Below are positions 1,976-25,018 of a stretch of 62,715 nucleotides of DNA, piece by piece. Under the pieces are notes generated by a model, which worked only from the letters and a program-made list of their open reading frames with translations, made no database searches and was not told the DNA's origin. The stretch lies in the NCBI GenBank assembly GCA_944376715.1, contig CALWDO010000013.1, forward strand, positions 1-62,715, written 5' to 3'. The stretch comes from an uncultured Lachnoclostridium sp. Lineage in GTDB: Bacteria > Bacillota > Clostridia > Lachnospirales > Lachnospiraceae. The translations under genes were made by a program, and so were the position numbers. Positions within the stretch are counted from its first letter, which is position 1. The number at the start of each line of letters is the position of its first letter.

Positions 1976-1987
1976 CATAATGCGACA

Positions 1988-6891: not shown

Positions 6892-6904
6892 ATAAATTAC
6901 CTCC

Positions 6905-7234: not shown

Positions 7235-7241
7235 CCCAAGA

Positions 7242-9583: not shown

Positions 9584-9603
9584 ATGCGCCTCCATGCTGC
9601 TTT

Positions 9604-11472: not shown

Positions 11473-11485
11473 TTCTTTCCCCTCC

Positions 11486-11983: not shown

Positions 11984-12440
11984 ATCTTTTCTCCTTTCCT
12001 ACCAATCTGGCTTTCTTCCAAAATCCCGGCGCATTCTGATGTTCCTTCAGATTTTCCTCCATCATGTGTTTGTATCTCTGTGGCCCATACCGCTTTATCT
12101 TCTGCTGCCGGTCCTCCTCAATCTTCCGGATCAGCGCGGTCACTTGGCACGCCGGATAGTAATACCGGTCATACCGGTCATGCGCCATCCGGTACTTTGG
12201 AATATGGGAACCAATGTTATACCGGTACTTCAGGTACCTTTTTCCGTTATGGTTGCTGATCCGGATACTGTTGCACACTCCGTAATCCAGCTTCAAATAA
12301 ATACTGTCCGTGGAATATGCATCATATCGCTGGACCACAATCCCTGCTTTCAGGAGAGCCTCCTGGAGCACTTCCGCCAGGTTTTGGACCTCATCATTTT
12401 TCGTCATATATCTTTTTCCGGATCTGTTCGATTTCCTCAT
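11967..12440 (-). CDS. Phage early protein of unknown function
   Basis: A 157-residue basic, tyrosine-rich protein I do not recognise. From the ATG at 12440 it overlaps the upstream gene by 47 bases; the internal ATG at 12407 (MTKNDEV) would cut the overlap to 14 and is a reasonable alternative. It overlaps the Gp157 gene by 17 bases. The segment RYDRYYYPACQVTALIRKIEEDRQQ suggests a nucleic-acid-binding surface, but no named motif is present. Confidence 0.55.
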   Translation of the reverse strand: MRKSNRSGKRYMTKNDEVQNLAEVLQEALLKAGIVVQRYDAYSTDSIYLKLDYGVCNSIRISNHNGKRYLKYRYNIGSHIPKYRMAHDRYDRYYYPACQVTALIRKIEEDRQQKIKRYGPQRYKHMMEENLKEHQNAPGFWKKARLVGKEKRYAKLI

Positions 12441-12711
12441 CTGACGCGCCTTCCGGGACTCTTATTTCCATTGAAACAGGTGTAAATATTTCCAGCATAG
12501 TCTCAGCTATTTTGTTGGCTTCCGGGTCTTTTTTTGAAAGATTCCGTTCTATCGTCTTCAAAGACGCCAGGATGAAAACAAGATCGTCTTCATGAAAAGG
12601 GCAAATAGCATTTGCGATTTTATTGGTAAAATGCTTCAGCGCATCTCCAATGCCGCCGGACATCCTTTCAGCATTCGCTTCTTTAATTTTCTGCAAGTAA
12701 CTTTTCTCCAT
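12394..12711 (-). CDS. Phage early protein of unknown function
   Basis: A 105-residue, mostly helical, charged protein without a family I know. It has a good ribosome site (AAAGGA, six bases before the ATG) and lies in the early operon between the HTH gene at 12730 and the basic protein at 11967. The acidic C-terminal helix (PEGASDEEIEQIRKKI) could be a protein-interaction surface. Confidence 0.55.
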   Translation of the reverse strand: MEKSYLQKIKEANAERMSGGIGDALKHFTNKIANAICPFHEDDLVFILASLKTIERNLSKKDPEANKIAETMLEIFTPVSMEIRVPEGASDEEIEQIRKKIYDEK

Positions 12712-12729
12712 GTTTTTCCTTTCCTCCAG

Positions 12730-13092
12730 CTATATATCGTTTTCAGGCGCCACACTGTTTTCTGTTTTCTTCCGGAGCTTCGACAGTCCTGTGGCGACGG
12801 TCTTCACTGTCGTACCCATCTCGTCCGCGATCTTCTCGTGGCTCCATCCGGCACGGTGCAGGGCCTGGATCTTTCCCCAGTCCAGCTTCTTCCGCTTCGC
12901 CGGCTGCTTCTCCGGGTTCGGATCGGGGGGGGGGGATTCCGGATCTGCCGGCTGCTCCTCAATCGCAAATTCGCCTAACAGCCAGTCAGCGATCGTAAGG
13001 CTTGTAATATCTGTCAGCTGCAACATATATACCATACGCCCCGCCTTCAGCTCATCGACCACCCGCTGGCCGGTAATTCTTTCAAGGCTCAT
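12730..13092 (-). CDS. Small phage HTH protein with an 11-base homopolymer in its linker
   Basis: A 120-residue protein. The N-terminal half is unknown. The C-terminal part, LHRAGWSHEKIADEMGTTVKTVATGLSKLRKK, is a clear helix-turn-helix of the sigma/terminase-small-subunit type, so it probably binds DNA. The halves are joined by a proline-rich linker (ESPPPDPNPEKQ) encoded by eleven consecutive G bases on the plus strand. A one-base change there would cut the DNA-binding half from the protein. It starts right after the 27-residue membrane peptide (13096-13179) and may regulate the early operon. Confidence 0.6.
   Translation of the reverse strand: MSLERITGQRVVDELKAGRMVYMLQLTDITSLTIADWLLGEFAIEEQPADPESPPPDPNPEKQPAKRKKLDWGKIQALHRAGWSHEKIADEMGTTVKTVATGLSKLRKKTENSVAPENDI
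12925..12935. repeat. Run of eleven G inside a coding region
   Basis: G11 (C11 on the coding strand) encodes the Pro-Pro-Pro linker of the HTH protein. Tracts this long slip readily in replication, and also in sequencing, so either phase variation or a base-count error is possible. Confidence 0.8.
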
Positions 13093-13095
13093 CTC

Positions 13096-13179
13096 TTACG
13101 CTCCTTTCACAACCTTCGCCAACGCTGCCCAAAACAGGAGGCACAGCGCCAGGATCACTGCCCATTTGTTATCATTCAT
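13096..13179 (-). CDS. 27-residue membrane peptide
   Basis: This small gene encodes one hydrophobic helix: MNDNKWAVILALCLLFWAAL followed by AKVVKGA. Its ATG overlaps the end of the preceding gene (GATGAATGA), so translation is probably coupled. Its stop lies seven bases before the ATG of the HTH gene. Single-helix phage peptides in early operons are often host-membrane modifiers, but nothing in this sequence assigns a role. Confidence 0.55.
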   Translation of the reverse strand: MNDNKWAVILALCLLFWAALAKVVKGA

Positions 13180-13369
13180 CATCCTCATAGTAGAAATACC
13201 CTCCGCTTTCCCTGTACGCCACGTACCCGCAGATGCCGCTGACCAGCAGGATCACGACCGGCCAGAAGACGCTTGTCCGACATTCGATCGCACCGCAAAG
13301 GCTAGCAGACCCTATGATCCCGCCGAAAGCTGCGACGGCTCCGGCAATCTTATACAATTTCATAACCAA
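13172..13369 (-). CDS. Small two-helix phage membrane protein
   Basis: A 65-residue protein with two membrane helices (about residues 6-26 and 34-52) and an acidic cytosolic or external tail (YFYYEDDE). It overlaps the gene upstream by 10 bases and the 27-residue membrane peptide downstream by 8 bases. I know no named family. The two adjacent hydrophobic products suggest a shared role at the membrane early in infection. Confidence 0.55.
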   Translation of the reverse strand: MVMKLYKIAGAVAAFGGIIGSASLCGAIECRTSVFWPVVILLVSGICGYVAYRESGGYFYYEDDE

Positions 13370-13695
13370 TACAACCTTTCTTCCTTCTCCCCGCGGTATA
13401 CATCCAGGTACTTTTCAAGGCTCGTCATCATCAGGTCACGCTTCATACCAGACCGTTCTTCCGCATCGATATGTTCCCAGTCATACAGACACTGCGCGTA
13501 GCCGAAGAGAAAATACCTCTCCATATCCACGCTGTCCCGCAGGATCCCGATCCTCGGGTCCAGGATATTTATACGGATCCGGTTGTCCATATCCGTAAGG
13601 TGGGTGAACAGCGTCCTGATCCTGCACCGAAGCATCGATGACGCCGCAGGGTAGCGGTCCGCCATTTTATCCAGAAACTGTTTCCAATGTTCCAT
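13360..13695 (-). CDS. Phage early protein of unknown function
   Basis: A 111-residue helical, charged protein that I do not recognise. It is the first protein gene downstream of the phage tRNA and overlaps the next membrane protein by 10 bases. The central segment MERYFLFGYAQCLYDWEHI is aromatic-rich. No start other than the ATG at 13695 is better supported. Confidence 0.5.
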   Translation of the reverse strand: MEHWKQFLDKMADRYPAASSMLRCRIRTLFTHLTDMDNRIRINILDPRIGILRDSVDMERYFLFGYAQCLYDWEHIDAEERSGMKRDLMMTSLEKYLDVYRGEKEERLYWL

Positions 13696-13722
13696 ATGTA
13701 ATTCGCTTTCTTCGCGCGCGAT

Positions 13723-13797
13723 TGGATCCGCCGGGGTTCGAACCCGGATCAGATGAAAGGATGAGAGACCTCGCTCTGCCGATTGAGCTACGGATCC
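13723..13797 (-). tRNA. Phage tRNA with an irregular anticodon arm (anticodon read tentatively as CUC)
   Basis: The 75-base sequence has a perfect seven-pair acceptor stem (GGATCCG/CGGATCC), a proper D arm (GCTC...GAGC), a perfect T arm (CCGGG-TTCGAAC-CCCGG) and discriminator A, without an encoded CCA. The 25 bases between D and T arms do not form a normal five-pair, seven-loop anticodon arm. The best reading pairs GAGG with CCTT and places U33-CUC-A37, which would decode GAG (Glu). It lies upstream of the early protein genes. It could be a decayed tRNA or a tRNA with an altered arm. Confidence 0.7.
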
Positions 13798-13865
13798 ATG
13801 TGCCCCGTTTCCGGGGCTGTATATATTTATATGGGGTTTAGGAGTCAGGCAGCTTGTCTGCCTGA

Positions 13866-13890
13866 GGGCGCGGTCCGGAGTCGAACCGGT
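13866..13890 (-). other. Possible 3' remnant of a second tRNA
   Basis: The minus strand has ACCGG-TTCGACT-CCGGA followed by CCGCGCC, which looks like a T arm and the 3' half of an acceptor stem. No matching 5' half (GGCGCGG) or D arm is found upstream. It is probably a tRNA fragment left by recombination or an eroded tRNA. Confidence 0.35.
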
Positions 13891-13975
13891 ATTGTGTGTT
13901 TGTGGGGTATACTATGTATTTGAAAGGACTTCCTTATTGCCCGCCGTCGGGCCTCCCGCGCCATGTTCCCCGCCG

Positions 13976-14125
13976 CTATCCGGCGGCGGGTTCTTTCTTT
14001 TTCTCTACTTTGTCGTATCCCAGGACATCCATCATTCTGGTGAGCATCTGTTCTGCTTCTTCCTTCGTGGGACGCCGTTCTTCCCCATTGACACGATATT
14101 CAATTTTTATACCATTGACTTCCAT
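13976..14125 (-). CDS. Small phage protein of 49 residues
   Basis: This short gene has an excellent ribosome site (AGGAGGTGGGTAA before the ATG) and encodes MEVNGIKIEYRVNG, a helical middle (TKEEAEQMLTRMMDVLGYDK) and a basic end. I know no family. The sequence over its stop codon is part of a GC-rich inverted repeat (13970-13990) that, read rightward, precedes a T-rich stretch and may act as a terminator against transcription from the other strand. Confidence 0.6.
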   Translation of the reverse strand: MEVNGIKIEYRVNGEERRPTKEEAEQMLTRMMDVLGYDKVEKKKEPAAG

Positions 14126-14168
14126 TTACCCACCTCCTGAAATCAATATATGTACGGCAGATTGTCCG

Positions 14169-14348
14169 TTATCCTGATTCCATCCCATCCGTCTGGTATT
14201 TCTCTAAAAGAGTTTGAAAATCTTTCCACTCCTTTGATTCTTCGAGTTCTCTCCACCCACGGGAAGGAACAGAAAATCGTATTACAACCTGATCAGATAA
14301 AATGGATCTGAATTCCTCATACCCGTACGGTTTAGGCTCAATCTCCAT
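14169..14348 (-). CDS. Small phage protein of 59 residues, minus arm of the first divergent cassette
   Basis: The start is taken at ATG 14348 because a strong GGAGGAGGTGG lies just upstream; a longer frame back to 14450 has no such site. The product MEIEPKPYGYEEF... is acidic and aromatic, with no known family and no membrane helix. Its upstream region is shared with the divergent plus-strand gene at 14464. That whole control region resembles the one between 15013 and 15126. Confidence 0.6.
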   Translation of the reverse strand: MEIEPKPYGYEEFRSILSDQVVIRFSVPSRGWRELEESKEWKDFQTLLEKYQTDGMESG

Positions 14349-14463
14349 ATCTATAAACCACCTCCTCCCCTGGCTCCGCCTGTTCTTCCTTTTCTTTTTT
14401 CTCTGTGGTATACTCTTTATATACCCCTGTCCGGGCCGAGTATAATGCAAAGGAATTTCTCAA

Positions 14464-14886
14464 ATGCTTTTACTTACACAAACCACAATCCCTAAAATCG
14501 ATTTAACTATCACGATTTCCGTAATCGTGGCCCTTGCCGCTATCGTTTCACCCATATTTACCACGATTATCAATAATCGCCATCAGTCTAAATTAAAAAG
14601 GATGGAACTAAACCAAAAACAATTTGAAAGCACCATTCTGTATAAGCGTACTATCTTCGAAAATTACCTTAAGAGCGCCGGTAGGTGTGTTAAATACTCT
14701 GACCCTGAAGCTTTAAAAGAATATGGCGAATACTATTTTCTGGCCCTCACATACGCTCCCGATAATATTAAAAGTCTTATGATTCAAATCAATTCCGCCA
14801 TATCTCATGCTCATTTCGATCAGGCTACTGCATTGTTTGAAGAACAGGCTGTGCCTTTAATAAGTACCATGCTAAAAAACATGTAA
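14464..14886 (+). CDS. Membrane-anchored protein with charged tail, plus arm of the first divergent cassette
   Basis: A 140-residue protein with an N-terminal membrane helix (about residues 15-35, ITISVIVALAAIVSPIFTTI), then a basic and glutamine-rich coiled segment and a helical domain. No family is recognised. It is written against the flow of the early operon, like the lysogeny genes, and has its own upstream signals: an extended -10 TGGTATACT near 14407 and AAAGGA eight bases before the ATG. A perfect ten-pair terminator follows at 14915-14950. Orientation, insulation and membrane anchoring suggest a gene expressed in the lysogen, perhaps for exclusion. Confidence 0.6.
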   Translation: MLLLTQTTIPKIDLTITISVIVALAAIVSPIFTTIINNRHQSKLKRMELNQKQFESTILYKRTIFENYLKSAGRCVKYSDPEALKEYGEYYFLALTYAPDNIKSLMIQINSAISHAHFDQATALFEEQAVPLISTMLKNM

Positions 14887-15013
14887 GCAGTATACATATC
14901 GTTATCACGTACACAAGATACAGCTTTAAAAATTCAGGCTGTATCTTTTTCATTATCATGCAGCAAGCTCCAGCTATTACCCAGACCATGGCAATCGCAA
15001 ACGCTGTGCTCAC
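14825..15013 (-). CDS. Small two-helix membrane protein, minus arm of the second divergent cassette
   Basis: A 62-residue product with two membrane helices (about residues 4-20 and 31-52). The GTG start at 15013 has AAGGAGGT seven bases upstream. Its 3' end overlaps the plus-strand gene at 14464-14886 tail to tail by 62 bases, and that gene's terminator hairpin lies inside this frame. Such overlap of a small hydrophobic protein with an opposing transcript is also the geometry of type I toxin-antitoxin pairs. That is only a geometric hint. Confidence 0.45.
   Translation of the reverse strand: MSTAFAIAMVWVIAGACCMIMKKIQPEFLKLYLVYVITICILLTCFLAWYLLKAQPVLQTMQ
14915..14950 (+). terminator. Rho-independent terminator of the 140-residue membrane protein gene
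   Basis: A perfect ten-pair stem AAGATACAGC / GCTGTATCTT with a 13-base loop, followed by TTT. Confidence 0.75.
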
Positions 15014-15125
15014 CTACTCCACCTCCTTCCCTGACTCCACAGGAGCTTTATTTGTCTTCCTTCCTGTGCTACACTTTCTTTACAGGCTCCCGCCAGAGCC
15101 CAGTATCGAAGTAAGGAGAAAGGCA

Positions 15126-15950
15126 ATGAGCACTTATGACGAAGCTGTCCGTATTCATGAAATGCTTGAAAAAACTTTAGAACCTATTCGCAGGATCCAG
15201 GATCAATATTTTGAAGTACTCGAACCAATCAGGCAGGCTCAAGAAGTTCTTTATAACCGCTGGAATCAATATTTCTCTCAGTACCAATTGATGAACGAAA
15301 ACATTATTCAAATTGTCAATTCAGTTAACGAAATGACCCAGGCATTTTCTGTCCCTTTTCAACAATTAACAGAAAATCTCCTATCTAATTTGTACGAGTC
15401 TTTTTCTGCTATCAACGGCATAACATCTCCCGCATATGACATTCTTAATACGCTTTCAGAAGGTATTACATTTTCACCTAATGGAGTATCTATCACTGAA
15501 GATGCTTTACAATCTATCTCCGAGTTTGTTGATTTGCCTTCAGAAACCACGGAGGCCCACCCCGAAACATCCACTAAGCTAATCTCCTTCAAGGAATTTC
15601 TCCTTGACATTCTAATTCCGATATTTGCAATATTGATTCCGTTGATACAGACACAGCATCTTCATCGTTTAGATGCATTAGAGGAAGAACGTTATCAACT
15701 GGAAGAATCTGAATATCAGGAACGATTAATCCAAATTGAAGAAGAACAACTAGAGACTGAACAACAAATCCTTACATACCTTGAACAGATTTCAAATTCT
15801 CTTGAAGCAAATCCAGGGAATCAACAACTTCTCGAAGAATCTGTAGACGCTCTTCAGCAATCCCTAACTGCGTCTCCTGAGCTTGAAGAATCTGCTGATC
15901 CTGAGTATGAAGCCTCTGATGTTCCCGATATTCATAATGTACATAAATAA
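15126..15950 (+). CDS. Coiled-coil membrane protein, plus arm of the second divergent cassette
   Basis: About 274 residues from the ATG at 15126, chosen for its AAGGAG site; the longer frame to 14958 lacks one. There is a long helical N-terminal region, one membrane segment (LLDILIPIFAILIPLI, about residue 165), then a glutamate/glutamine-rich coiled coil and an acidic tail. No family is recognised. The order 'membrane helix then Q/E-rich helix' recalls the shorter plus-strand gene at 14464, and the two control regions are related. The gene lies between cro and the early genes in the lysogenic orientation, and a terminator follows at 15965. Probably a lysogeny-expressed accessory protein. Confidence 0.6.
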   Translation: MSTYDEAVRIHEMLEKTLEPIRRIQDQYFEVLEPIRQAQEVLYNRWNQYFSQYQLMNENIIQIVNSVNEMTQAFSVPFQQLTENLLSNLYESFSAINGITSPAYDILNTLSEGITFSPNGVSITEDALQSISEFVDLPSETTEAHPETSTKLISFKEFLLDILIPIFAILIPLIQTQHLHRLDALEEERYQLEESEYQERLIQIEEEQLETEQQILTYLEQISNSLEANPGNQQLLEESVDALQQSLTASPELEESADPEYEASDVPDIHNVHK

Positions 15951-15964
15951 ATTGATTTACCCAT

Positions 15965-16014
15965 AAGACTGCAATGCCTATCCAAAGCGATATATACTGC
16001 AGTCTTCTTTTTTT
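15965..16014 (+). terminator. Terminator between the coiled-coil gene and cro
   Basis: A perfect nine-pair stem AAGACTGCA (15965-15973) / TGCAGTCTT (15998-16006) with a following run of seven T. Confidence 0.7.
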
Positions 16015-16027
16015 GTTTGGATTTATT

Positions 16028-16261
16028 TCACTCCACCCCTTCTATTTTTTGTCTCATTTCGTGACATTCCTCATCAAAAAAAATTTTCTGAACTGTTGTA
16101 TTGTAATAATCCGCCAATGCAATTTTAACAGAATCTCTTGGAATCCTTCTCTCTGTTTCGTACATTGCAAGCGTAGAAGTCGCAATTCCAATAGATTTTG
16201 CTACCTCAGATCGACTTCTTGGACCTCTTAATTCCATTAAGCGCTTTCCGTATGGAACCAT
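16028..16261 (-). CDS. Cro-like XRE-family regulator
   Basis: A 77-residue protein with a single XRE helix-turn-helix (SRSEVAKSIGIATSTLAMYETERRIPRDSVKIALADYY). It is the first gene of the leftward lytic transcript and diverges from the CI-like repressor at 16401, with three operators between them. In related phages this protein commits to lytic growth by shutting off the repressor promoter. A strong promoter (TTGACA-17-TATACT) drives it. Confidence 0.8.
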   Translation of the reverse strand: MVPYGKRLMELRGPRSRSEVAKSIGIATSTLAMYETERRIPRDSVKIALADYYNTTVQKIFFDEECHEMRQKIEGVE

Positions 16262-16279
16262 TTCTTATCACCTCCACTT

Positions 16280-16375
16280 GTCACTTTTTGTGACTAAATT
16301 CAGTATATCACTACTCTATATTCTTGTCAATCACATTTTGTGACATTTTTATTTACTTTTATCACACATTGTGAT
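16280..16375. promoter_or_regulatory. Immunity switch region: three operators and two divergent promoters
   Basis: Three 15-base inverted repeats of the form RTCAC-N5-GTGAY lie at 16280-16294, 16330-16344 and 16361-16375. The leftward promoter has TTGACA at 16325-16330 and TATACT at 16302-16307, 17 bases apart. It is flanked by the first operator and touched by the second. The rightward repressor promoter has TTTACT at 16352-16357 and TATCAT at 16375-16380, with the third operator in its spacer. This is the textbook layout of a CI/Cro switch. Confidence 0.8.
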
Positions 16376-16400
16376 ATCATACCTGTAAAGGAGGCACGCG

Positions 16401-16853
16401 ATGGGAAACTTTCAAAATATCTTCAAACGATTAAGAATATCAAGCGGATTAACACAATCAGAAATCGCTCAACGAATAGGTATATCGCGTAGCACAATCG
16501 GGATGTATGAAACAGGTGCTCGCGAACCAGACTTCGAAACTTTAGAAAAAATAGCTGATTTCTTCAATGTTGACACGGATTATTTATTAGGCCGAACAGA
16601 TAGAACTTCTATCTTACCAGAAACCATAGGTCTTTATAACTCTTCTTTGAATAAAAAAGATGAAAAGGATATAGAAAAAATCCTCGATCACACCAGAGAG
16701 CAGCTCCTAAACCAAGAAGGATTGATGTTCGATGGAAATCCGGCAACATCTGAAGCGATAGACTCCATCCTTTCTGCCATGCAGATCGGCATGGAAATGG
16801 CGAAGAAAAAGAATAAGGAAAAATACACTCCTAAAAAATACAAAAAGGACTGA
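16401..16853 (+). CDS. CI-like phage repressor, XRE family
   Basis: A 150-residue protein. The N-terminal XRE helix-turn-helix (GLTQSEIAQRIGISRSTIGMYE) lies at residues about 15-40, and FFNVDTDYLLGRTD is the usual linker of Firmicute phage repressors. The C-terminal part is helical, with no LexA-type peptidase residues, so induction is expected through the ImmA peptidase encoded five bases downstream. AAAGGAGG precedes the ATG. It keeps the lytic promoter off by binding the three operators in the upstream gap and should also control itself through the third operator. Confidence 0.85.
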   Translation: MGNFQNIFKRLRISSGLTQSEIAQRIGISRSTIGMYETGAREPDFETLEKIADFFNVDTDYLLGRTDRTSILPETIGLYNSSLNKKDEKDIEKILDHTREQLLNQEGLMFDGNPATSEAIDSILSAMQIGMEMAKKKNKEKYTPKKYKKD

Positions 16854-16857
16854 TATC

Positions 16858-17292
16858 ATGAATAATCGGCTGATTTGCAAAAAGGCAAACCAATTAGTCA
16901 GATTTTACAAGACCCGCGATCCGTTTGAAATGATCAAGGGCATGAATGTCATCCTGGTATTCCATCCACTCGAAGATATCCGCGGCTTTTATCAATACTT
17001 TCAACGTAATAACATCATTTATATCGATGAAAAACTGGATGAGTTTGAAAAGAAATTTGTATGTGCCCATGAACTTGGACATATGTTTTTGCATAAGAAA
17101 ACAAATGCCATTTTTATGGACACAAAGACACATTTCAAATCTGACCGTTTTGAACAAGAAGCCGATTTATTCGCAGCGGATCTATTGATTTCCGATGAAC
17201 TACTCGCAGAATATTCTGAATATACTTGTCGGCAAATCTCTGTATTAACAGGTTATCATGAGGCTCTGATTGAGCTCCGTAGGCTCATTTAA
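16858..17292 (+). CDS. ImmA/IrrE-family metallopeptidase
   Basis: A 144-residue zinc peptidase with the HExxH motif in FVCAHELGHMFLHKK (about residue 69) and the downstream acidic ligand region FEQEADLFAADLLI. In ICEBs1-like and siphophage systems this family cleaves the neighbouring XRE repressor after DNA damage to trigger induction. The gene starts five bases after the repressor stop, which supports that partnership. Confidence 0.9.
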   Translation: MNNRLICKKANQLVRFYKTRDPFEMIKGMNVILVFHPLEDIRGFYQYFQRNNIIYIDEKLDEFEKKFVCAHELGHMFLHKKTNAIFMDTKTHFKSDRFEQEADLFAADLLISDELLAEYSEYTCRQISVLTGYHEALIELRRLI

Positions 17293-17352
17293 ATTTCATA
17301 GCATTCTAATATTTTAACTCAATCCAATATGAGAGAAAGGAACGATATTTAT

Positions 17353-18675
17353 ATGAAAAGAAAGTGGTATCTTCAAACTTGGTTCATCTGTGTTCTATTT
17401 GTTTTTTGGCCCTTAGTCATACCCGCTGTTTTAGGAGTAGTGTTTCTTGTGTTACAAATTTTTGAAAATAATAAGCTCAGAGAAAAATATGGTACTATAG
17501 ATTCTCTGGATAATAAGATTTCTGATCTTAAGACTAAAATAAATGAAATTGAAAAATCCAATTCCGATTTAATTACGAATTGGAACTATAAAATTAATAA
17601 CAAAAAAACAGAATATGATAGCTTATGTGCCGAAATTGCCACCCTAGGACAAGAAGCGGTCTGCTCACAATACGTTTATTCCGATTATGATGGCCTTACA
17701 TCCGAGGAATGTAAAAATAAGTTGGCTCTTTTAAAGGCAGAAGAGCAAGCCTACATTAAAAATTCTAATGCGGTAAAATTATTCGGTAGTTCTTCCAAGA
17801 AAGGATTAAATTCCAACGTAAAGCAAATATTACGATGCTTTAATTCCGAATGTGACAATGTTTTATTGAACTTATCTGTAAAAACCATTGATACGGCACG
17901 AAACAAAATAACAAAATCGTTTGAGACTCTCAATAAATTGTTTTCTGTTGATGGGGTTCAATTGGAACAAAAGCTTTTGCAATATAAACTAGAAGAACTA
18001 AATCTTGTCTATACATATGAACTTAAAAAGGAACAAGAACGAGAACATCAAAGGGTTATTAAAGAGCAGATGATAGAAGAAGAGAAAGTTCGAAGAGAAA
18101 TAGAACGGCAAAAAGCAAAATTAGAAAAAGACCAGGCTCAATATTCCAATGAGATTAATCGTCTTATGGGATACATGCAAAAAACCCAGGATGATGTAGA
18201 AAAGCAACTTTATATCGATAAAATCAAAGAATTGGAGGAAAAACTTAAACAGCTGGAAGCTGATAAGGCTACTGTTTTGGAACGAGAAGCCAATGCGCTC
18301 GCAGGGTATGTATATATTATTTCAAATATTGGCTCTTTTGGAGAAAATGTCTACAAAATTGGCATGACACGACGCCTAGAACCTATGGATCGCGTGAAGG
18401 AACTTGGAAGTGCTTCTGTCCCATTTGAATTTGATGTGCATGCCATGATATTCTCAGATAATGCTCCAGCTCTTGAAACTGCCCTGCATCAGGCATTTGA
18501 AAAACAGAGTGTGAATCGCGTAAATTTGAGAAAGGAATTTTTCCGAGTATCTCTGGATGATATTGAAAAAGTTGTCAAAGATAACTTTAATAATGCTGTA
18601 AAGTTTACTCGTATACCGGTGGCAAAGGAATATAACGAAACACTTGAGATATTAAAACAAGAACAATCTGCTTAA
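17353..18675 (+). CDS. Membrane nuclease with DUF4041 and GIY-YIG (T5orf172) domains, SNIPE-like
   Basis: About 440 residues. The ATG at 17353 (MKRKWYL) is preferred because AAAGGA lies upstream; the ATG at 17329 has no such site. Order: N-terminal membrane segment (about residues 8-36), coiled coil, DUF4041-type region (about 90-200), second coiled coil, and a C-terminal GIY-YIG variant with GYVYIIS (318), YKIGMTRR (334-341, catalytic-type Arg) and ETALHQAFE (375, metal-ligand-type Glu). A membrane anchor plus DUF4041 plus GIY-YIG is the plan of the SNIPE defence nuclease, which cuts incoming phage DNA at the membrane. Its place after repressor and ImmA fits expression in the lysogen. Confidence 0.75.
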   Translation: MKRKWYLQTWFICVLFVFWPLVIPAVLGVVFLVLQIFENNKLREKYGTIDSLDNKISDLKTKINEIEKSNSDLITNWNYKINNKKTEYDSLCAEIATLGQEAVCSQYVYSDYDGLTSEECKNKLALLKAEEQAYIKNSNAVKLFGSSSKKGLNSNVKQILRCFNSECDNVLLNLSVKTIDTARNKITKSFETLNKLFSVDGVQLEQKLLQYKLEELNLVYTYELKKEQEREHQRVIKEQMIEEEKVRREIERQKAKLEKDQAQYSNEINRLMGYMQKTQDDVEKQLYIDKIKELEEKLKQLEADKATVLEREANALAGYVYIISNIGSFGENVYKIGMTRRLEPMDRVKELGSASVPFEFDVHAMIFSDNAPALETALHQAFEKQSVNRVNLRKEFFRVSLDDIEKVVKDNFNNAVKFTRIPVAKEYNETLEILKQEQSA

Positions 18676-18708
18676 ATATTTTTACTTGTCTTACAAAAGT
18701 AATTGTTA

Positions 18709-18794
18709 ATCGAATTATGAAGATAGGAAAGGCTCCCGACACACTCGGAAGAGTACCTAAAATGATGGATACGTCGCCCATCTTGTAATTCGAT
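18709..18794 (+). other. Structured element after the membrane nuclease gene
   Basis: A long closing helix (18709-18724 with 18780-18794, ATCGAATTA...TAATTCGAT plus five further pairs after a small bulge) encloses a four-pair GGAA-tetraloop hairpin (18743-18754) and a second GATGG/CCATC hairpin. It has no T tract and no coding potential I trust. It could be a structured 3' end, a riboswitch-like element or a remnant of a mobile element. Confidence 0.4.
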
Positions 18795-18800
18795 GAACTA

Positions 18801-18829
18801 TTGACTGCGAGCATATTATAGACTATAAT
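18801..18829 (+). promoter_or_regulatory. Strong promoter of a small RNA
   Basis: TTGACT (18801-18806), an exact 17-base spacer, and a perfect TATAAT (18824-18829). No protein gene follows; a terminator lies about 95 bases downstream. Confidence 0.7.
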
Positions 18830-18835
18830 GAATCC

Positions 18836-18931
18836 ACAGTAAAGCTACACTTTACTGAACATCGCCTATAGGACATCAAAGAAGATATGAATTCATTATG
18901 TGAAGGTCTCGTAGCAATACGAGACCTTTTA
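18836..18931 (+). ncRNA. Candidate small RNA, about 95 bases
   Basis: The transcript predicted from the promoter at 18801-18829 begins near 18836. It folds into a perfect eight-pair hairpin CAGTAAAG/CTTTACTG and ends at a perfect nine-pair terminator GGTCTCGTA-GCAA-TACGAGACC followed by TTTT (18905-18930). Only a weak 22-codon frame is present. It is encoded between the membrane nuclease and the toxin pair, in the lysogenic orientation. Function unknown. Confidence 0.6.
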
Positions 18932-18936
18932 CGTTA

Positions 18937-19057
18937 CTCCAAAACAATTTGTTAACGTCGGTAAATCATTTGCCCCTGCGGGGGATCAGGGGCGCACCTT
19001 GAAAACATAATATCCTTACCAAGGCAGTTGATAGGGCGGTCATAGCAATTCTGAATT
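18937..19057. other. Short non-coding stretch with a CCCCTG hairpin
   Basis: The only structure I see is GCCCCTG...CAGGGGC near 18972-18993. It closely resembles the hairpin after the recombinase (21612-21632), down to a shared CCCCTGCG left arm. It may mark the end of an older inserted segment. Confidence 0.3.
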
Positions 19058-19170
19058 AAAAAAATAAGTAAACCGCTCTGATATCCTTGGCCGGATGGGC
19101 GGTTTACTCATAATAACTGTCTAATTCGCCGGAACGGGGAGCTCGTACCTCCCTTACCGACTGTCTTGTT
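19058..19170 (-). ncRNA. Candidate small RNA, antitoxin-RNA-like, about 113 bases
   Basis: Leftward promoter: TTGACA (19199-19204), 16 bases, extended -10 TGCTATAAT (TATAAT at 19177-19182). The predicted RNA contains a GGGAG/CTCCC hairpin and ends in a perfect nine-pair stem GTAAACCGC/GCGGTTTAC (19099-19107 with 19068-19076), then TTATTTTTTT. From memory this resembles the antisense RNAs that accompany small holin-like type I toxins in Firmicutes. No intact toxin gene overlaps it here, only a possible tail of one (SNSELKK then stop, ending near 19067). A frame of about 23 codons inside it has no ribosome site. Confidence 0.55.
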
Positions 19171-19176
19171 AAGTAT

Positions 19177-19204
19177 ATTATAGCAGATATACTTAAAATG
19201 TCAA
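19177..19204 (-). promoter_or_regulatory. Consensus promoter of the leftward small RNA
   Basis: TTGACA and TATAAT with a 16-base spacer and a TGC extension of the -10 box. It is among the strongest-looking promoters in the window. Confidence 0.7.
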
Positions 19205-19334
19205 ATGGTGACAGCTGATCTCCTGCGCCAAGCTGTTTCCGCACAATGGACATGGATTGAAATAAATGCATAGGGAACAATAAATATCACATAGAAAACC
19301 GCATATCATGTAAACAAATGGAAGGAGTGATTAT

Positions 19335-19559
19335 ATGTCGACACTTGAAAAAGCAATGAGTCTGTTACAGGAACTTCCTGAACAGAAAGTAGAAACCGTT
19401 TACACCTTTATTCAATTCATAATTGCAAATGACGCTGCCGACACTGCAAATCGCACATCTGCTTTTGGTATAGCGCACAAGTATGCGAATCCTGATCTCA
19501 TCGATAAAGAAAAGGAGGCGTTTTCAAATGCCATGGTCAAAAAACATGTTCTTGATTGA
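19335..19559 (+). CDS. VapB-like antitoxin of a PIN-toxin pair
   Basis: A 74-residue protein. The N-terminal helical region LEKAMSLLQELPEQKVETVYTFIQFI is of the DUF2281/VapB type found in antitoxins. The C-terminal tail is probably the segment that wraps the toxin. GGAAGGAG precedes the ATG. It overlaps the PIN-domain toxin gene by 32 bases in another frame, the normal order of antitoxin before toxin. The pair probably represses its own promoter and stabilises the prophage or provides defence. Confidence 0.7.
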   Translation: MSTLEKAMSLLQELPEQKVETVYTFIQFIIANDAADTANRTSAFGIAHKYANPDLIDKEKEAFSNAMVKKHVLD

Positions 19560-19911
19560 TGCCAATGTCATTCTCCGCTACCTTTTAAATGACAACCCAT
19601 CGATGTCTCAAAAAGCCAAGGAAATCATTGAAGCAGGAGCTTATACGAAAGCTGAAATTCTCGCAGAAGTTGTCTATGTTTTGGACGGCGTATACTCAGT
19701 TACACGTGAAGATATTAAAACATATATTTTAAGGATTTTAGATGATGTGCAATGCTCAGAGCACTCTTCTATCGCCTATGCGATGACTGTATATGCTGCA
19801 ACAAAACTTGATTTTGTAGACTGCCTACTCGTCGGCTATCACTTTGTTAATGGTGAAAAAGTATTCACTTTTGACAAAAAGCTGAACAAGCAGATACAAG
19901 AAAAATCTTAA
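19528..19911 (+). CDS. VapC-like PIN-domain ribonuclease toxin
   Basis: About 127 residues from the ATG at 19528, chosen for AAGGAGG upstream; a frame start at 19483 has no site. The PIN acidic residues are in place: MFLIDANVILRYLL (first Asp), AEVVYVLDGVY (Glu), KLDFVDCLLVGY (Asp) and VFTFDKKLNKQI (last Asp). PIN toxins cut RNA, commonly tRNA or rRNA, when freed from the antitoxin encoded just upstream. The 9-base-stem hairpin at 19916-19939 may end the transcript. Confidence 0.8.
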   Translation: MPWSKNMFLIDANVILRYLLNDNPSMSQKAKEIIEAGAYTKAEILAEVVYVLDGVYSVTREDIKTYILRILDDVQCSEHSSIAYAMTVYAATKLDFVDCLLVGYHFVNGEKVFTFDKKLNKQIQEKS

Positions 19912-19915
19912 TTCC

Positions 19916-19979
19916 AACCGTATGGAATTACATACGGTTAAAAATAAAGACCGCCCTGATGCGGCAACACCAGGACGGT
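19916..19979 (+). promoter_or_regulatory. Two hairpins in the leader before the recombinase
   Basis: The first is a perfect nine-pair hairpin AACCGTATG-GAATTA-CATACGGTT (19916-19939). The second is ACCGCCCTG/CAGGACGGT (19950-19958 with 19971-19979), one mismatch, with a 12-base loop. I recall similar hairpins before many Clostridia serine recombinases; a regulatory RNA role is inferred. Confidence 0.45.
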
Positions 19980-20036
19980 TCAGATATCTCCGAAAAGATA
20001 CCTCACAAACACAACTATAGTGTATCATTTTCGGAG

Positions 20037-20073
20037 CAGCCATGCAAGCGAAAACTCGCTGGCTGTTATTTTT
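20037..20073 (+). terminator. Terminator-like hairpin just before the recombinase (possible attenuator)
   Basis: CAGCC...AGCG / CGCT-GGCTG (20037-20065) followed by TTATTTTT. It overlaps a 25-codon leader frame, so translation of the leader could alter its folding. Confidence 0.45.
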
Positions 20074-20119
20074 GTACCAAAAAATAATTTGCGACGTCGC
20101 AAAAGTCGTTCCCGTATAG
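20042..20119 (+). CDS. 25-residue leader peptide upstream of the recombinase
   Basis: The peptide is MQAKTRWLLFLYQ followed by KIICDVAKVVPV, with CGGAG five bases before its ATG. I recall similar short frames containing YQKxxxDVxKxVP before serine recombinases in other Clostridia, which suggests conservation. The palindrome at 20088-20103 lies in its codons for ICDVAK. It overlaps the terminator-like hairpin, so a leader-peptide or attenuation role for recombinase expression is possible. Confidence 0.4.
   Translation: MQAKTRWLLFLYQKIICDVAKVVPV
20088..20103. repeat. Perfect 16-base palindrome TTTGCGACGTCGCAAA before the recombinase
   Basis: Shares the 14-base core TTGCGACGTCGCAA with the palindrome at 4240-4255 in the ParB-like gene. 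It lies about 47 bases before the recombinase start and could be an operator. Confidence 0.55.
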
Positions 20120-20149
20120 AGGAACGTGGATTGAACTGGAGGTATGAAC

Positions 20150-21607
20150 ATGAAAAATGGTGCATGTTACATCCGGGTAAGTACAGAAAAACAGGATGAA
20201 CTGTCCCCGGACGCCCAGAAACGTCTGCTGCTGGATTATGCCCGGGAGAATGATATTATCGTCACGGAAGACAGCATCTTCTGGGAGATCGGGATCTCCG
20301 GCCGGAAGACGGAAAACCGGCCGGCGTTCCGGCAGATGGTCGCCACTGCCAAAAGCAAAGACCATCCTTTTGATGTAATCCTGGTCTGGAAATTTTCCCG
20401 GTTTGCCAGGAACCAGGAAGAATCCATCGTCTATAAATCTCTGCTGAAAAAAAGCGGTGTGGACGTGGTCAGCGTATCGGAGCCGCTTCCGGAAGGGATC
20501 ATGGGCGGCCTGATCGAGCGGATCCTGGAGTGGATGGACGAATACTACTCTATCCGCCTGTCCGGCGAAGTCATGCGCGGCATGACGGAGAAAGCCATGC
20601 GCGGCGGCTACCAGTCCAATCCGCCCATGGGATACAACCGGGAGCGCGGCGGCCTTCCGGTGGTCAACGAAAAGGAAGCAGCCATCGTGCGCCGAGTGTT
20701 CCACCTTTTTGTGGACGAAAAGATGAGCATGTGCGCCATCGCCAAAAGAATGAACCTGGACGGATACCCCACCAAACGCGGCGCCCACTGGAATGTGACG
20801 CACATCCGGTACATGCTCGGCAATCCATTCTACATTGGGAAAATACGATGGAATTATATCACACATGCAAATGGGAAACGGAAAAGGGATGAAGAGGACT
20901 GGATCATCGCGGATGGCGTGCACGAACCGATCATCCCGGAAGAGACTTTCCAGGTTGCACAGAAGCGGCTCAAAGAAGCTGCCGGACGCGGCTTTGGAGC
21001 CGGGCACATCTCATCCCGGCACTGGCTCAGCGGCATACTGAAATGCGGCGTCTGCGGCGGCCCCATGACTTATGTGGGAGCGACAAAACGAAACGGGGCT
21101 TCCTACCGGTGCGTCTATCATGTCCGCGGGGCCTGCAGCACCACCGGCCGGATCGCGCTGTCCAAGCTGGAGAGCGCCGTCCTGTCCGGCCTGGAGGACC
21201 CTTTCGATACAGCGGCCGATGCTGTCTTTGTCCAGCGGGATCTGCTGCAGGATGATGCAGGCGCGCCGCAGATCATCCAGGATCAGATCAAAGACCTGGA
21301 TCGTAAAGAAAAGCGTCTGCGCGCTGCTTATATGGATGGGATCGATACACTGGAAGATTACCGGGAAGCGCGCCGTACTCTGGACGCGCGCCGGGAAGAA
21401 TTAAAGAGACGCCTGGAAGAACTGATCTGCCCGGAAGAGTCCGAAGATGTCCGGATCCGCCTGATCCAGAATACGCAGGATGTACTGAAGGTACTGAAGA
21501 ATCCGGATATAGACGTCCTGAAGAAACAGGACGCCATCCGGAATATTTGCCAGAAGATCCTCTGGAACAAAGAGACCAGCACACTGACCTTCTACTTCTA
21601 TACATAG
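20150..21607 (+). CDS. Large serine recombinase (phage integrase)
   Basis: About 485 residues from ATG 20150 (GGAGG at proper distance; the ATG at 20144 is too close to it). The N-terminal resolvase domain carries the catalytic serine in ACYIRVSTEKQ and the conserved Arg-rich VWKFSRFARN. A recombinase domain follows, with GGYQSNPPMGY and the RGAHWNVTHIRYMLGNPFYIG motif. A zinc ribbon (KCGVCGGPM...C...C, about residue 300) precedes a C-terminal coiled coil. It is the last prophage gene and lies about 65 bases from the junction with the interrupted PBP gene, as expected for the integrase that put the prophage there. Excision would need a directionality factor that I cannot identify. Confidence 0.95.
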   Translation: MKNGACYIRVSTEKQDELSPDAQKRLLLDYARENDIIVTEDSIFWEIGISGRKTENRPAFRQMVATAKSKDHPFDVILVWKFSRFARNQEESIVYKSLLKKSGVDVVSVSEPLPEGIMGGLIERILEWMDEYYSIRLSGEVMRGMTEKAMRGGYQSNPPMGYNRERGGLPVVNEKEAAIVRRVFHLFVDEKMSMCAIAKRMNLDGYPTKRGAHWNVTHIRYMLGNPFYIGKIRWNYITHANGKRKRDEEDWIIADGVHEPIIPEETFQVAQKRLKEAAGRGFGAGHISSRHWLSGILKCGVCGGPMTYVGATKRNGASYRCVYHVRGACSTTGRIALSKLESAVLSGLEDPFDTAADAVFVQRDLLQDDAGAPQIIQDQIKDLDRKEKRLRAAYMDGIDTLEDYREARRTLDARREELKRRLEELICPEESEDVRIRLIQNTQDVLKVLKNPDIDVLKKQDAIRNICQKILWNKETSTLTFYFYT

Positions 21608-22763
21608 AATACCCCCTGCGCAGGACAGGGGGACAAAAATTGAAGCCGTGCAGGCAGTATTTTTGAATACGCGGATTACAAGAATTCATAATGGCATGGG
21701 TAAAATCCTGATCCCCATGCCCGCCGACCTTATGGCACCGGATCCTCCGGTCTTCCACAATCTTATACCCGGGACAGTTAAAGTGGTCTTCCAGCGTGCA
21801 GGTCCCGGTCAGCAGCGCTGCGGAAGAAGTAAAAATCTTAAACGTGGATCCAGGCTCATAAGTGTCATTGACGCTCTGATTCCGCCACATCTGGTTCAAT
21901 GCGTCCTGTTTTTGTTCTTCTGTCATCAGAGAAGCATCTTCTCCCGTATTCAAAATAAACGGATCATTCAGGTCAAATTCCGGCACATTTACGCAGGCAT
22001 AGATTTCTCCATTCTGCGGGTTCATAATCAATATAGAAACATAGTCCGCCTGCTTTGCTTCCATGACCTTCAGCGCCTCCTGCTGCGCATAGGACTGAAT
22101 ATTATAGTCCAGGCTGACTACCAGATCGTTGCCGGGCACCGACTCCACCCGCTCCTCTTTGGCATTCTCGATCTCGATGCCTCTGGCGTCCGTCAGAGTC
22201 AGGATCGTCCCCGGGATTCCCTCCAGATACTCGTCATACATGACCTCCAGTCCGATGATTCCCTGATTGTCGCTGCCTGTGAATCCCAGAACCTTGGAGG
22301 CCAGTTCACTATAGGGATAGTAGCGTTTGAAATCTTCATCCACTTTTACGCCTGCATAATGATAGGCACGGATAGCATCCCCCACTTCCTTATCCACGTT
22401 GGATTGGATCCGTTCTATAGAACTTACCTTCTCCACCCGGTTTCGCACCGTTTCTTCCGACAGTCCCAGTTCCTTACAAAGCATCTGTATCACCGCTTCC
22501 GGATCTTCGATCTGACTGTGAATCACGGAGATGGTGCAGACTGTCCGGTTATCAGCCAATACCGTACCGGTCCTGTCGATGATCCGTCCCCTGGCGGCCT
22601 TGATGCTCCGCTCCCTCTCATGAAGATCCTGCGCCAGTTCCTGGTAATATTCTGATTCAAATATCATAAGATAGATCAATCTCCCCGCAAGAACGGCCAT
22701 CATGCCAAAACAGGCGAAAAACACGACCAGTATCTTTTTCTTGTGAAAAGTCATGCAATGCAC
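21288..22763 (-). CDS. Second penicillin-binding transpeptidase of the division cluster, 3' end cut off by the prophage
   Basis: A class B PBP of the FtsI/SpoVD type. It has an N-terminal membrane anchor (LVVFFACFGMMAVLAGRLIYLM), a dimerisation region and a transpeptidase with SxxK (YEPGSTFK) and SxN (MNSCNP). After that proline (base 21672) the reading frame enters prophage DNA and runs on by chance to 21288, antisense to the recombinase. The third motif, KTG, is missing, so the product as it stands should be inactive. GTG 22763 is the best start, with GAGGTG seven bases upstream. A complete PBP gene lies directly upstream, so this one may be the sporulation paralogue (SpoVD); that assignment is inferred. 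Confidence 0.8.
   Translation of the reverse strand: MHCMTFHKKKILVVFFACFGMMAVLAGRLIYLMIFESEYYQELAQDLHERERSIKAARGRIIDRTGTVLADNRTVCTISVIHSQIEDPEAVIQMLCKELGLSEETVRNRVEKVSSIERIQSNVDKEVGDAIRAYHYAGVKVDEDFKRYYPYSELASKVLGFTGSDNQGIIGLEVMYDEYLEGIPGTILTLTDARGIEIENAKEERVESVPGNDLVVSLDYNIQSYAQQEALKVMEAKQADYVSILIMNPQNGEIYACVNVPEFDLNDPFILNTGEDASLMTEEQKQDALNQMWRNQSVNDTYEPGSTFKIFTSSAALLTGTCTLEDHFNCPGYKIVEDRRIRCHKVGGHGDQDFTHAIMNSCNPRIQKYCLHGFNFCPPVLRRGYSMYRSRRSVCWSLCSRGSSGKYSGWRPVSSGRLYPDSSVPSVHPAYSGSGGSGHLRTLPGRSVLPGVSLILPGARPEYGALPGNLPVYRSHPYKQRADAFLYDPGL
21608..21675. other. Right attachment-site junction (attR) of the prophage
   Basis: The recombinase stops at 21607 and PBP-type coding (minus strand, ...AIMNSCNP) begins at 21672. 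The codons after the proline (RIQKYCLHG) no longer match any transpeptidase, so the crossover lies close to 21665-21675. The exact core dinucleotide cannot be fixed without the left junction, which is outside the window. Confidence 0.7.
21612..21632. terminator. Hairpin after the recombinase
   Basis: CCCCCTG / CAGGGGG, seven perfect pairs with a seven-base loop, followed by ACAAAAA. Probably terminates the recombinase transcript. Lies within the arm of the attachment site. Confidence 0.5.
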
Positions 22764-22768
22764 ACAAA

Positions 22769-22829
22769 AACACCTCATAAGACTTTTTGTTCCAAATCTA
22801 TGAAACTTTTCCTTGTCTTATGAGGTGTT
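22769..22829 (-). promoter_or_regulatory. 15-pair hairpin holding the ribosome site of the interrupted PBP
   Basis: A perfect 15-base inverted repeat (22769-22783 with 22815-22829) between the two PBP genes, followed by TTTTT on the minus strand, so it can terminate. Its 3' arm contains GAGGTG, the Shine-Dalgarno of the second PBP, which would be hidden when the hairpin forms. Confidence 0.65.
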
Positions 22830-22846: not shown

Positions 22847-25018
22847 TTATTCTGTCGGATCTGCGTTGGGATCCTCTTCTGTCGCGACCTCCGGCTGTAC
22901 GTCTACCAGATTCTGGTTCACCGGCGTATCTCCCAGGACAGAGTCGTCTTCTTCATCCACGCTCTCCGGATCCGGCATCTGCACGGTTTCTCCGGTCTGT
23001 GGATCTACCAGGGTTCCCTCTTCCAGAGGCTCTTCTTCCTCTTCCTCCGCAGCCGTCTCTTCCGGATTTTCCTCTTCCTGTGCCGCTTCTACTTCATCTA
23101 CCATATCTGCCGGAATCTCCTCGGTCGGATAGATGTTCAGATACGGAAGGGCTTCTTCCATAATATTTTTCCAGATCTCCATCGCAAAAGAGCTGGAGGA
23201 CTGTTTTTCCGCATTGGGTTCATCCACCACCACGTAAAGTACGACTTCCGGATTCTCCGCTGGAGCGAACCCGATAAAAGATACCAGATAATTAGTCTTG
23301 TCCCTCGGAATCTTCTCCGCCGTACCGGTCTTGCCTCCCATGGCGTATCCCGCAATACGGGCAGCCCTTCCGGTGGCGTTGTTGCCATTGGCGTCCGCCG
23401 CTCCATACATCGTATTGTACAGATACTGGCGGATCAGGGATGACGTTTTCGCGGAAATAGGCTCTCTTAAGACTACCGGCTCAATATTCTGCACGGTTCC
23501 GCCATTGCTGTCCAGAATCTTTTTCACCACATGAGGCTGATAATAATAACCGCCGTTGATGCAGGCAGAAAATGCCGCCGCCATCTGTACCATCGTTACA
23601 TTATAGTTCTGCCCGAAAGAGTTTGTCGCCAGATCCGTAGCTCCCATGACCAGATTCTCGCTGGGCGCTGTATCTGCCGAGTAATAAAGAAGACTGTCTG
23701 TACGGGCCTCTCCCGGAAGATCGATCCCGGTACGCAGACCCAGATTAAACATGTTCTGGTACTTGGAGAAATTTTCTTCTCCCAGCTTCGCCGCGATCTG
23801 CATCAATGCGTCGTTGCAGGAAAACATCAGGGAGCCCTGCAGGTCGATAATTCCATGTCCGACTTTCTTGGAACACCAGATCGTATGGCTGCCCACAGTC
23901 TGATTACCGTCACACAGGAAAGTATCTCCGTCATGAACCGCTCCTGTCTCCAGCGCCGCCGCCACTGTGATCGGCTTTGCAGTGGATCCCGGCTCATAAG
24001 TATCGCTGATGCAGAAATTTCTCCACAGTTCATTGAGCGCGTTCAGGCGTTCTTCATCGGAGAGATTCGCCGCCTCTTCTTCCGTATAGAGTCCATTGAT
24101 CACTACATCATACGGATTATTCAGATCATAGGTCCGGTTGCTGGCCATGGCAAGGATCTCTCCCGTATTGGGGTCCATCATGATTGCCGCCGCAGTCTTA
24201 CTGCCGTCGCCTTCCCGGTATGCGTCTGTATATTTTTCCTGGAACTCTGCAATCGCGTTTTCCACGATCTGCTGAAGCGTAATGTCGATCGTGGACACGA
24301 CGCTGTTGCCGTCGGTCGCCGCCCGTACGGACTTCTCCTGTTCCAGGTCTTCATTCAGATAGTTATAACTTCTTCCGTTCTCCCCGTTCAGAGTCTCGCT
24401 GTACTCCTGCTCAATACCATACTGGCCCACATTGCCGGATACCGTATATCCGATCACGTTGCATGCCAGCGTATTGTAGGGATATCTGCGTATGTAATCC
24501 TCTTCCAGCCAGACTCCTTCGATACGGTTTGCAGAGTCGTCCATTGCGGCCTCAAACTCTTCCACTTCGTCTTTTGTCAGATGCTTTTCCAGTACCACAT
24601 AGTGGCTCGTCGCGTTTTCCTGCATGATCCGATCCAGTTCAGTCCGGTCCTGGCCGAAATAATTGACCAATGCCTGCAGCGTAGGCTCCACACAGTCTTT
24701 TGCGGCGTCTTCACTATGGTATTCCCAAAGCACGCCCGGATCCAGAATCAGATTATATACCTTTTCACTGGTGGCAAGTACAGTTCCGTTACGGTCATAA
24801 ATATCGCCTCTTTTATAAGGAAGCGTGATACTGTTTGTGTCCTGCTGGGCAAGTACTTTCATAGTGTACTGGTCCCCGCTGACCCGGTTGATATAGACTA
24901 AACGTATCATGATACCTGCCAACGCCAAAACAATCACAGAAAATGTCAGCGCCAGCTTTCTCTTGACCTTTAGAGTTGCTCTTTTCCTTTTTGACATGCG
25001 TCTTCGATATTCAGCCAC
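22847..25018 (-). CDS. Penicillin-binding transpeptidase of the division cluster (FtsI/SpoVD type), intact
   Basis: A 723-residue class B PBP with an N-terminal membrane anchor at about residues 22-42 and a GDIYDRNG dimerisation motif. The transpeptidase carries SxxK at 345-348 (EPGSTAKP), SxN at 400-402 (SCN) and KTGT at 563 (GGKTGT). The last 90 residues are a long acidic Glu/Pro-rich tail without PASTA repeats. It makes septal or spore peptidoglycan cross-links. It lies in the order mraZ-rsmH-ftsL-pbp and is the intact member of the tandem pair. As the only complete copy it probably serves vegetative division (FtsI), though many databases label such proteins SpoVD. Confidence 0.85.
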   Translation of the reverse strand: MAEYRRRMSKRKRATLKVKRKLALTFSVIVLALAGIMIRLVYINRVSGDQYTMKVLAQQDTNSITLPYKRGDIYDRNGTVLATSEKVYNLILDPGVLWEYHSEDAAKDCVEPTLQALVNYFGQDRTELDRIMQENATSHYVVLEKHLTKDEVEEFEAAMDDSANRIEGVWLEEDYIRRYPYNTLACNVIGYTVSGNVGQYGIEQEYSETLNGENGRSYNYLNEDLEQEKSVRAATDGNSVVSTIDITLQQIVENAIAEFQEKYTDAYREGDGSKTAAAIMMDPNTGEILAMASNRTYDLNNPYDVVINGLYTEEEAANLSDEERLNALNELWRNFCISDTYEPGSTAKPITVAAALETGAVHDGDTFLCDGNQTVGSHTIWCSKKVGHGIIDLQGSLMFSCNDALMQIAAKLGEENFSKYQNMFNLGLRTGIDLPGEARTDSLLYYSADTAPSENLVMGATDLATNSFGQNYNVTMVQMAAAFSACINGGYYYQPHVVKKILDSNGGTVQNIEPVVLREPISAKTSSLIRQYLYNTMYGAADANGNNATGRAARIAGYAMGGKTGTAEKIPRDKTNYLVSFIGFAPAENPEVVLYVVVDEPNAEKQSSSSFAMEIWKNIMEEALPYLNIYPTEEIPADMVDEVEAAQEEENPEETAAEEEEEEPLEEGTLVDPQTGETVQMPDPESVDEEDDSVLGDTPVNQNLVDVQPEVATEEDPNADPTE

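Follow-up and report, generated by a model that had tools for sequence, protein, structure and literature searches.

A prophage splits a spoVD-type class B PBP gene at active-site codons hit repeatedly by distant serine recombinases in the Lachnospiraceae

In the stretch of DNA analysed here, referred to at its full length of 62,715 bp as the window (contig C13 of genome G000, a Lachnospiraceae genome of 2.9 Mb in 79 contigs), a prophage interrupts a class B PBP gene at the codons of its active-site SxN motif, and comparison across the family shows that this one SxN codon has been hit repeatedly by two distant serine recombinase subfamilies. The reading we favour, with moderate confidence, is that a phage occupies an attB within a gene of SpoVD role and would be excised from it in the sporulating mother cell, in the manner of skin and SP-beta. 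For another genus, selection on the gene strongly suggests that the split gene is used in its restored form; the mother-cell timing, and such regulation of the window prophage itself, we only infer.

The nearest named relative of G000 is Lachnoclostridium sp. An196 (G014/L035), whose PBP is 98 % identical, and the match to this orthologue passes through the SxxK motif (STFK, 21837-21848, minus strand) and ends at the 7-bp core GTAATCC, so that the cut falls in the SxN codons (SCN, 21675-21683), 65 bp from the large serine integrase gene (Table 1). A preliminary description of this DNA had the match run through both motifs and break at about 21,672, 65 bases from the end of a serine recombinase gene, and it was right on both counts, the distance being exact. 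It had also placed the break between SxN and the third motif, and the half bearing the third motif is indeed separated, although the cut is not well past the SxN codons but overlaps them. The KTG half that it reported as absent is absent from the window but, with the An196 protein (3' half) as query, is found on another contig of G000 (C74:4704-5369; 95 % identity to An196, open frame of 225 aa), where the motif is KTA and not KTG; KTA is likewise found in 75 of 80 named loci, the remaining five not being scorable at the motif. Contig C74 is 5,703 bp long. In our own reading, the KTA half is preceded there by the end of a lysin-like gene whose tail is SPOR-like, which is what the left prophage end would show; the DNA here resembles the endolysin-bearing stretch of the prophage in a second genome of the genus, G002. 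When the flanks are joined in silico at the core, they give ...HAIMNSCNPALMTMGLAMG..., the same as in An196, with the site reading MNSCNPALM in frame. The preliminary description had proposed exactly this search for the left junction and this join, and a remainder does exist and is in frame at the shared core. As in sporulation gene-intervening elements, the insertion lies inside the coding sequence of a sporulation-linked gene, its own recombinase stands beside one end (the integrase, 65 bp from the core), and a short direct repeat at both ends accompanies a join that restores the frame, here in silico only. Since this codon is also cut elsewhere in the genus and in other genera, the split is not a matter of chance.

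Table 1. Features of the window around the split PBP gene and within the prophage
Feature	Position	Strand	Basis or remark
Right-hand part of prophage	1..21672		contig begins at 1; left end on C74
DNA helicase	5132-6514	-	PHROGs
Primase/helicase	7242-9101	-	PHROGs
Sak4	10204-10860	-	PHROGs
Gam	11486-11983	-	PHROGs
HTH; M78; T5orf172	16401; 16858; 17329		Pfam
Structured leader with terminator before integrase gene	19912..20085	+	fold z -7.2; no Rfam match
Large serine integrase, 487 aa	20144..21607	+	Resolvase + Recombinase + Zn_ribbon_recom; phrog_95 integrase
Read-through tail of truncated PBP frame into unrelated prophage DNA, antisense to integrase	21288..21672	-	ORF 21288-22778, 496 aa
Crossover core GTAATCC at gene/prophage junction	21673..21679	-	identical 7 bp at other end, C74:5371-5377
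5' part of spoVD-type class B PBP gene	21673..22778	-	PBP_dimer + Transpeptidase domains (Pfam)
sigmaE-like -35/-10 (TCATAAG-N14-CATAGATT) before spoVD	22795..22823	-	12/15 consensus positions; weak
Intact upstream paralogue, FtsI/SpoVD-like class B PBP, KTG motif	22847..25018	-	domain, profile and structure matches

The split PBP probably plays the SpoVD role. The best NCBIfam model for the intact An196 orthologue is TIGR02214 (SpoVD), with 532.7 bits, a score below the curated cut-off of 688, and its best match among solved structures is C. difficile SpoVD (PDB 7rcz); the 5' half in the window scores 291.6 bits against the same model. The upstream paralogue also matches both TIGR02214 (400 bits) and 7rcz, more weakly. 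This neighbour had been described as an intact tandem copy, and it is adjoining and uninterrupted, but it is a paralogue, with 34 % identity along the 5' half. Stronger support for the role than these profile and structure matches comes from distribution. The orthologue (threshold E below 1e-75) co-occurs with SpoIVA (marker TIGR02836): in 61 genomes, tallied by hand, both are present in 48, neither in 7, SpoIVA only in 4 and the PBP only in 2, and in the 44 good genomes the corresponding figures are 37 and 5 with one discordant case in each direction (Fisher p = 2e-5 and 3e-5, respectively, with kinship ignored), which makes a SpoVD role probable. In B. subtilis, spoVD belongs to the sigmaE-controlled cortex genes (PMC517825). 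A motif similar to the weak sigmaE-like element of the window precedes spoVD in the seven genomes of the genus that could be aligned (13 tried); it overlaps a terminator-like hairpin, recognised by eye, that lies in the short stretch separating the two PBP genes (22784-22830, minus strand) and ends at the spoVD start, so its conservation has two possible causes.

The prophage has its replication genes on the minus strand and its repressor, ImmA-like, PIN and integrase genes on the plus strand; two stretches of its sister prophage in G006 put its length at about 40 kb. When the structural-module DNA of that sister was searched in G000, only short matches were obtained, on C55 and C74, and the left half of the window prophage is therefore missing or diverged in the assembly. 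The integrase has the Resolvase, Recombinase and zinc-ribbon domains by which large serine integrases are defined, and the same-site integrases of G006, G002 and G005 are, respectively, 91 %, 64 % and 62 % identical to it. A leader ending in a terminator is conserved before five integrases (those of G000, G006, G002, G005 and G008), with both partners changed in 5 of 30 consensus pairs and a covariation term of about zero, and this structured leader may control the integrase. Directly before it lies a PIN-domain ORF (19483-19911, plus strand), which we take to be VapC-like. The prophage also contains a skipping-rope RNA (RF02924; 18713-18790, plus strand; 43.7 bits) and a tRNA gene (13723-13797, minus strand), and the homologous part of the G006 prophage carries a tRNA as well. 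In the viral contigs searched, neither the exact attP of the window phage nor the PBP gene was found; one of them, IMGVR_UViG_3300006141_000019 (55,231 bp), contains an unbroken attP of the same core, along with the gene of a 64 % identical integrase.

Between G000 and G006, three of seven phage genes (integrase, primase/helicase and helicase) have dS values of 0.55-0.64 and the other four of 1.05-2.2, against 0.93-2.14 for host genes; for many wider pairs, the NG86 estimate is saturated or undefined. As three of the phage genes are less diverged than the host genes, each of the two prophages may have been acquired separately and recently, in which case selection says little about them. Between G000 and An196, dN/dS is 0.022 for the 5' part of the PBP gene and 0.040 for the 3' part, and with G006 as outgroup, five amino-acid changes fall on the G000 branch and four on that of An196, six being unresolved. 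The insertion in the window is possibly recent, and the intact-looking halves of G000 accordingly do not discriminate between readings.

Across the 17 genomes of the genus (G000-G016), the gene is intact in nine, with frames of 587-597 aa, split in four, probably split in one and undetermined in three (G004, G007 and G008), so that the uninterrupted gene the preliminary description had hoped for in related strains is found in An196 and elsewhere in the genus. Both halves are seen in the four split genomes (G000, G006, G002 and G005), whose prophages have related integrases; G011 is the probable case, its 3' junction being seen and its 5' contig ending early. The junctions share a GTAAT/C-type core and fall at an identical codon. 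In G002, the halves lie 54.6 kb apart on one contig, and the insert carries terminase, portal, major head, tail, tape-measure and lysis genes, including that for an endolysin. In G005, lysin- and holin-like genes come after the 3' half, with host-like genes beyond them (own reading), and this prophage looks rearranged or misassembled. Separately, a stand-alone serine recombinase of 396 aa is encoded in G000 (contig C45; L183, 6034-7224) and in An196 (L184, 6265-7455), the two being 87 % identical and adjoined by TrkA-like and rhomboid-like genes (own reading); recombinases of this kind are matched in 13 of the 17 genomes, the neighbours having been seen in G000 and An196 only.

Beyond the genus, the best 80 of 180 named loci comprise 75 with an uninterrupted match and five with an interrupted one. 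Three of these five (L036, L037 and L040) are G006, G005 and G002; in L062 (JAETRR010000023.1), the insert measures 4.4 kb and its integrase shares 54 % identity with that of the window, and L066 breaks at the same SxN codon on a contig that stops 0.4 kb further on. Among the matches listed for 397 genomes of the family, themselves a sample of a larger group, the gene is in a single frame except in G000 and G019. Re-examination of 17 family genomes, mostly weak scorers, revealed splits at the same codon in G104, G162 and G304, one match spanning the site in the other 14; the number of same-codon splits in the family is a lower bound, intermediate scorers being only partly covered. The inserts in these three are 4.9-8.0 kb long and hold one serine recombinase each, and no phage genes were recognised in them. 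Their recombinases (family B) are 49-59 % identical to one another and 19-22 % identical to the window integrase over long alignments, and their cargo consists of HSP70 and chemotaxis genes in G162, glycerol-kinase-type and FAD-oxidoreductase genes in G104 and an ABC transporter in G304. Both available genomes of the G162 genus are split. An in-frame NSCNP join is obtained in each of the 17 genomes tested that have both halves on one contig (15 of the G304 genus, G162 and G104), a consistency check in which cores were picked by pattern and in-frame joins accepted.

Other sites were encountered alongside this one. The element in G019 (C13; L155), a genome of another genus, is 8.2 kb long and cuts the spoVD-type gene elsewhere, near residue 174; it holds three serine recombinases in tandem together with SulP-like transporter and PHP-like genes (own reading). 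In five genera (L237, L241, L242, L246 and L252), the gene next to that of an ABC permease (own reading) encodes a family-B-like recombinase (36-39 % identical), a neighbourhood that is apparently another preferred recombinase site. A small ORF often precedes these recombinases and may be their partner; one also stands before many family-B recombinases, where it is a candidate directionality factor.

Of the 37 species in the genus of G304, 17 are split at the SxN codon, 18 are intact (two of them, G459 and G454, by a partial or gapped match) and two yielded no orthologue. Both halves lie on one contig in 15 of the 17 split species. Three ABC-transporter genes recur in the inserts, by resemblance and, in G304 alone, by domain scan, together with the recombinase and in some cases extra genes; the insert of G460 is cut by contig ends. 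On a tree of 33 genomes (17 split and 16 intact), split status requires four changes against a shuffled mean of 11.3, none of 500 shuffles being as low; nine split species form a supported clade, and another clade mixes five intact with two split species. The element thus appears, from this tree, to be vertically inherited among close split relatives, from one origin or more. In seven close split pairs, two of which share G441, dN/dS is 0.015-0.043 for the 5' half and 0.000-0.045 for the 3' half, compared with 0.014-0.042 and 0.009-0.034 in five intact pairs (a sixth, G461-G450, is too similar to use). The dS values of the split pairs are broadly alike for element genes (0.19-1.57) and gene halves (0.38-1.40), and the recombinase has a dN/dS of 0.106-0.141 in six of the seven pairs; the remaining pair gives 0.234, over just 88 codons. 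Such constraint would be lost in a permanently dead gene, and spoVD therefore seems to stay functional in this genus though split in the inherited chromosome, the element probably being removed when the gene is needed. Programmed, skin-like excision is the simplest reading of these substitution patterns.

Promoter sequences were also considered as a guide to timing, by scanning a sigmaE consensus (KMATATT-N12..14-CATACAHT) against shuffles. Upstream of the window integrase, the best sigmaE score is 10/15, and 95 % of 60 shuffles score as high. All 60 shuffles are beaten by three of 16 family-B recombinase upstreams (G304, G436 and G463), and all 40 by three of 30 spoVD upstreams of the G304 genus (G441, G445 and G470). 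The spacing and one example promoter can be found in PMC517825 and PMC3789822. These scores are not taken as proof of sporulation-timed excision.

In the account we favour, a temperate phage would have integrated through its serine integrase into an attB formed by the conserved SxN-codon DNA of the PBP gene of spoVD role, so that the sole product left to the lysogen is a truncated PBP lacking the third motif. The integrase and a directionality factor would reverse the insertion and restore the frame exactly, as the in silico join predicts. Vegetative cells would not need the split gene, the intact paralogue serving division, and, during sporulation, the element would be removed in the mother cell, whose line is terminal, much as skin and SP-beta are. 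Such a skin-like switch had been suggested in the preliminary description, and it gains from the in-frame remainder, the sporulation link of the gene and the selection seen in another genus, but not from the promoter of the window integrase. For the window, the support is indirect and comes from a vertically inherited element at the same codon, flanked by halves under strong purifying selection, which belongs to a different genus and uses a different recombinase subfamily.

The most serious competitor, which we regard as possible though less probable, is an ordinary temperate prophage that uses conserved active-site DNA as its attB without developmental control, the lysogen being unable to sporulate, or impaired in it, until a rare induction. 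Conserved coding DNA is a frequent target of serine integrases, the window holds a replication module, an attP-bearing phage contig exists, and both the possibly separate acquisition of the G000 and G006 prophages and the lack of a sporulation-type promoter above shuffles before the window integrase fit it; what it leaves unexplained are the non-phage elements at the same codon whose flanking halves are both under full purifying selection. That the two halves might instead act as separate polypeptides which assemble into an active PBP, making excision unnecessary, would suit the open and conserved state of both frames and the in-frame ATG found before the core in six of 19 3' halves (G456, G463, G466, G468, G162 and G104). 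We nevertheless consider it very improbable, as the 3' halves have no start codon in common (G439 and G443 are without ATG, GTG or TTG in the stretch examined), the cut hits the catalytic motif SxN, and selection on the recombinase persists in the G304 genus. An assembly or binning artefact fusing phage and host contigs could be suspected from the fragmented state of G000 and from its halves being on different contigs; it is largely refuted, and its probability negligible, given that independent assemblies show the same junction logic and that the halves share one contig in G002, L062, G162 and G104, as they do in 15 of the 17 split G304-genus species.

Several known systems bear comparison with programmed excision of this kind. 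The skin element is a phage-derived element in the mother-cell gene sigK of B. subtilis and C. difficile, where a serine recombinase restores the frame (PMC10747680, PMC517825); the window prophage is alike in element type, serine recombinase and in-frame join and differs in gene (spoVD) and taxon, and here in being seen in assemblies only. SP-beta, an active phage in spsM of B. subtilis that is excised during sporulation (PMC4191935), is likewise a phage in a sporulation gene, with a different gene, site and integrase, and has a directionality factor, for which no counterpart is named in the window prophage. Prophage-like elements also occupy other mother-cell sporulation genes, namely vfbin in spoVFB, vrin in spoVR and yin in yabG (PMC4191935, PMC10747680); in what is available of these papers, spoVD is not named for them, whereas here a single codon is struck in several genera by different elements. 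The non-phage intervening element gin, in gerE of B. cereus ATCC10987, also has a serine recombinase (PMC5595907) and in both respects resembles the small elements of G162, G104, G304 and the genus of the latter, which differ in lying in spoVD, in carrying ABC-transporter, glycerol-kinase-type or HSP70/chemotaxis cargo and in extending over 17 species of one genus. A literature search, largely without subscription papers, yielded no element reported at this spoVD site, in agreement with the preliminary description, which knew of none. The sole insertion found was a secondary one of ICEBs1 in spoVD of B. subtilis (PMC3715440), also a mobile element inside spoVD, which is a laboratory off-target site with undetectable excision and not a dedicated attB.

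Taken across the Lachnospiraceae, we think it rather likely that the SxN codons of spoVD form a family-wide hub of programmed splitting, at which phages and long-lived elements with metabolic cargo insert and mother-cell excision would rebuild the gene. This would carry developmental gene splitting beyond a few genes of Bacillus and Clostridium, into common anaerobes of the gut and a spore-wall transpeptidase. One codon is reused by very different elements, and selection measured across many species indicates that a sporulation gene remains functional while split. It would also call for caution, as annotation would label such genes pseudogenes and such species spore-defective.
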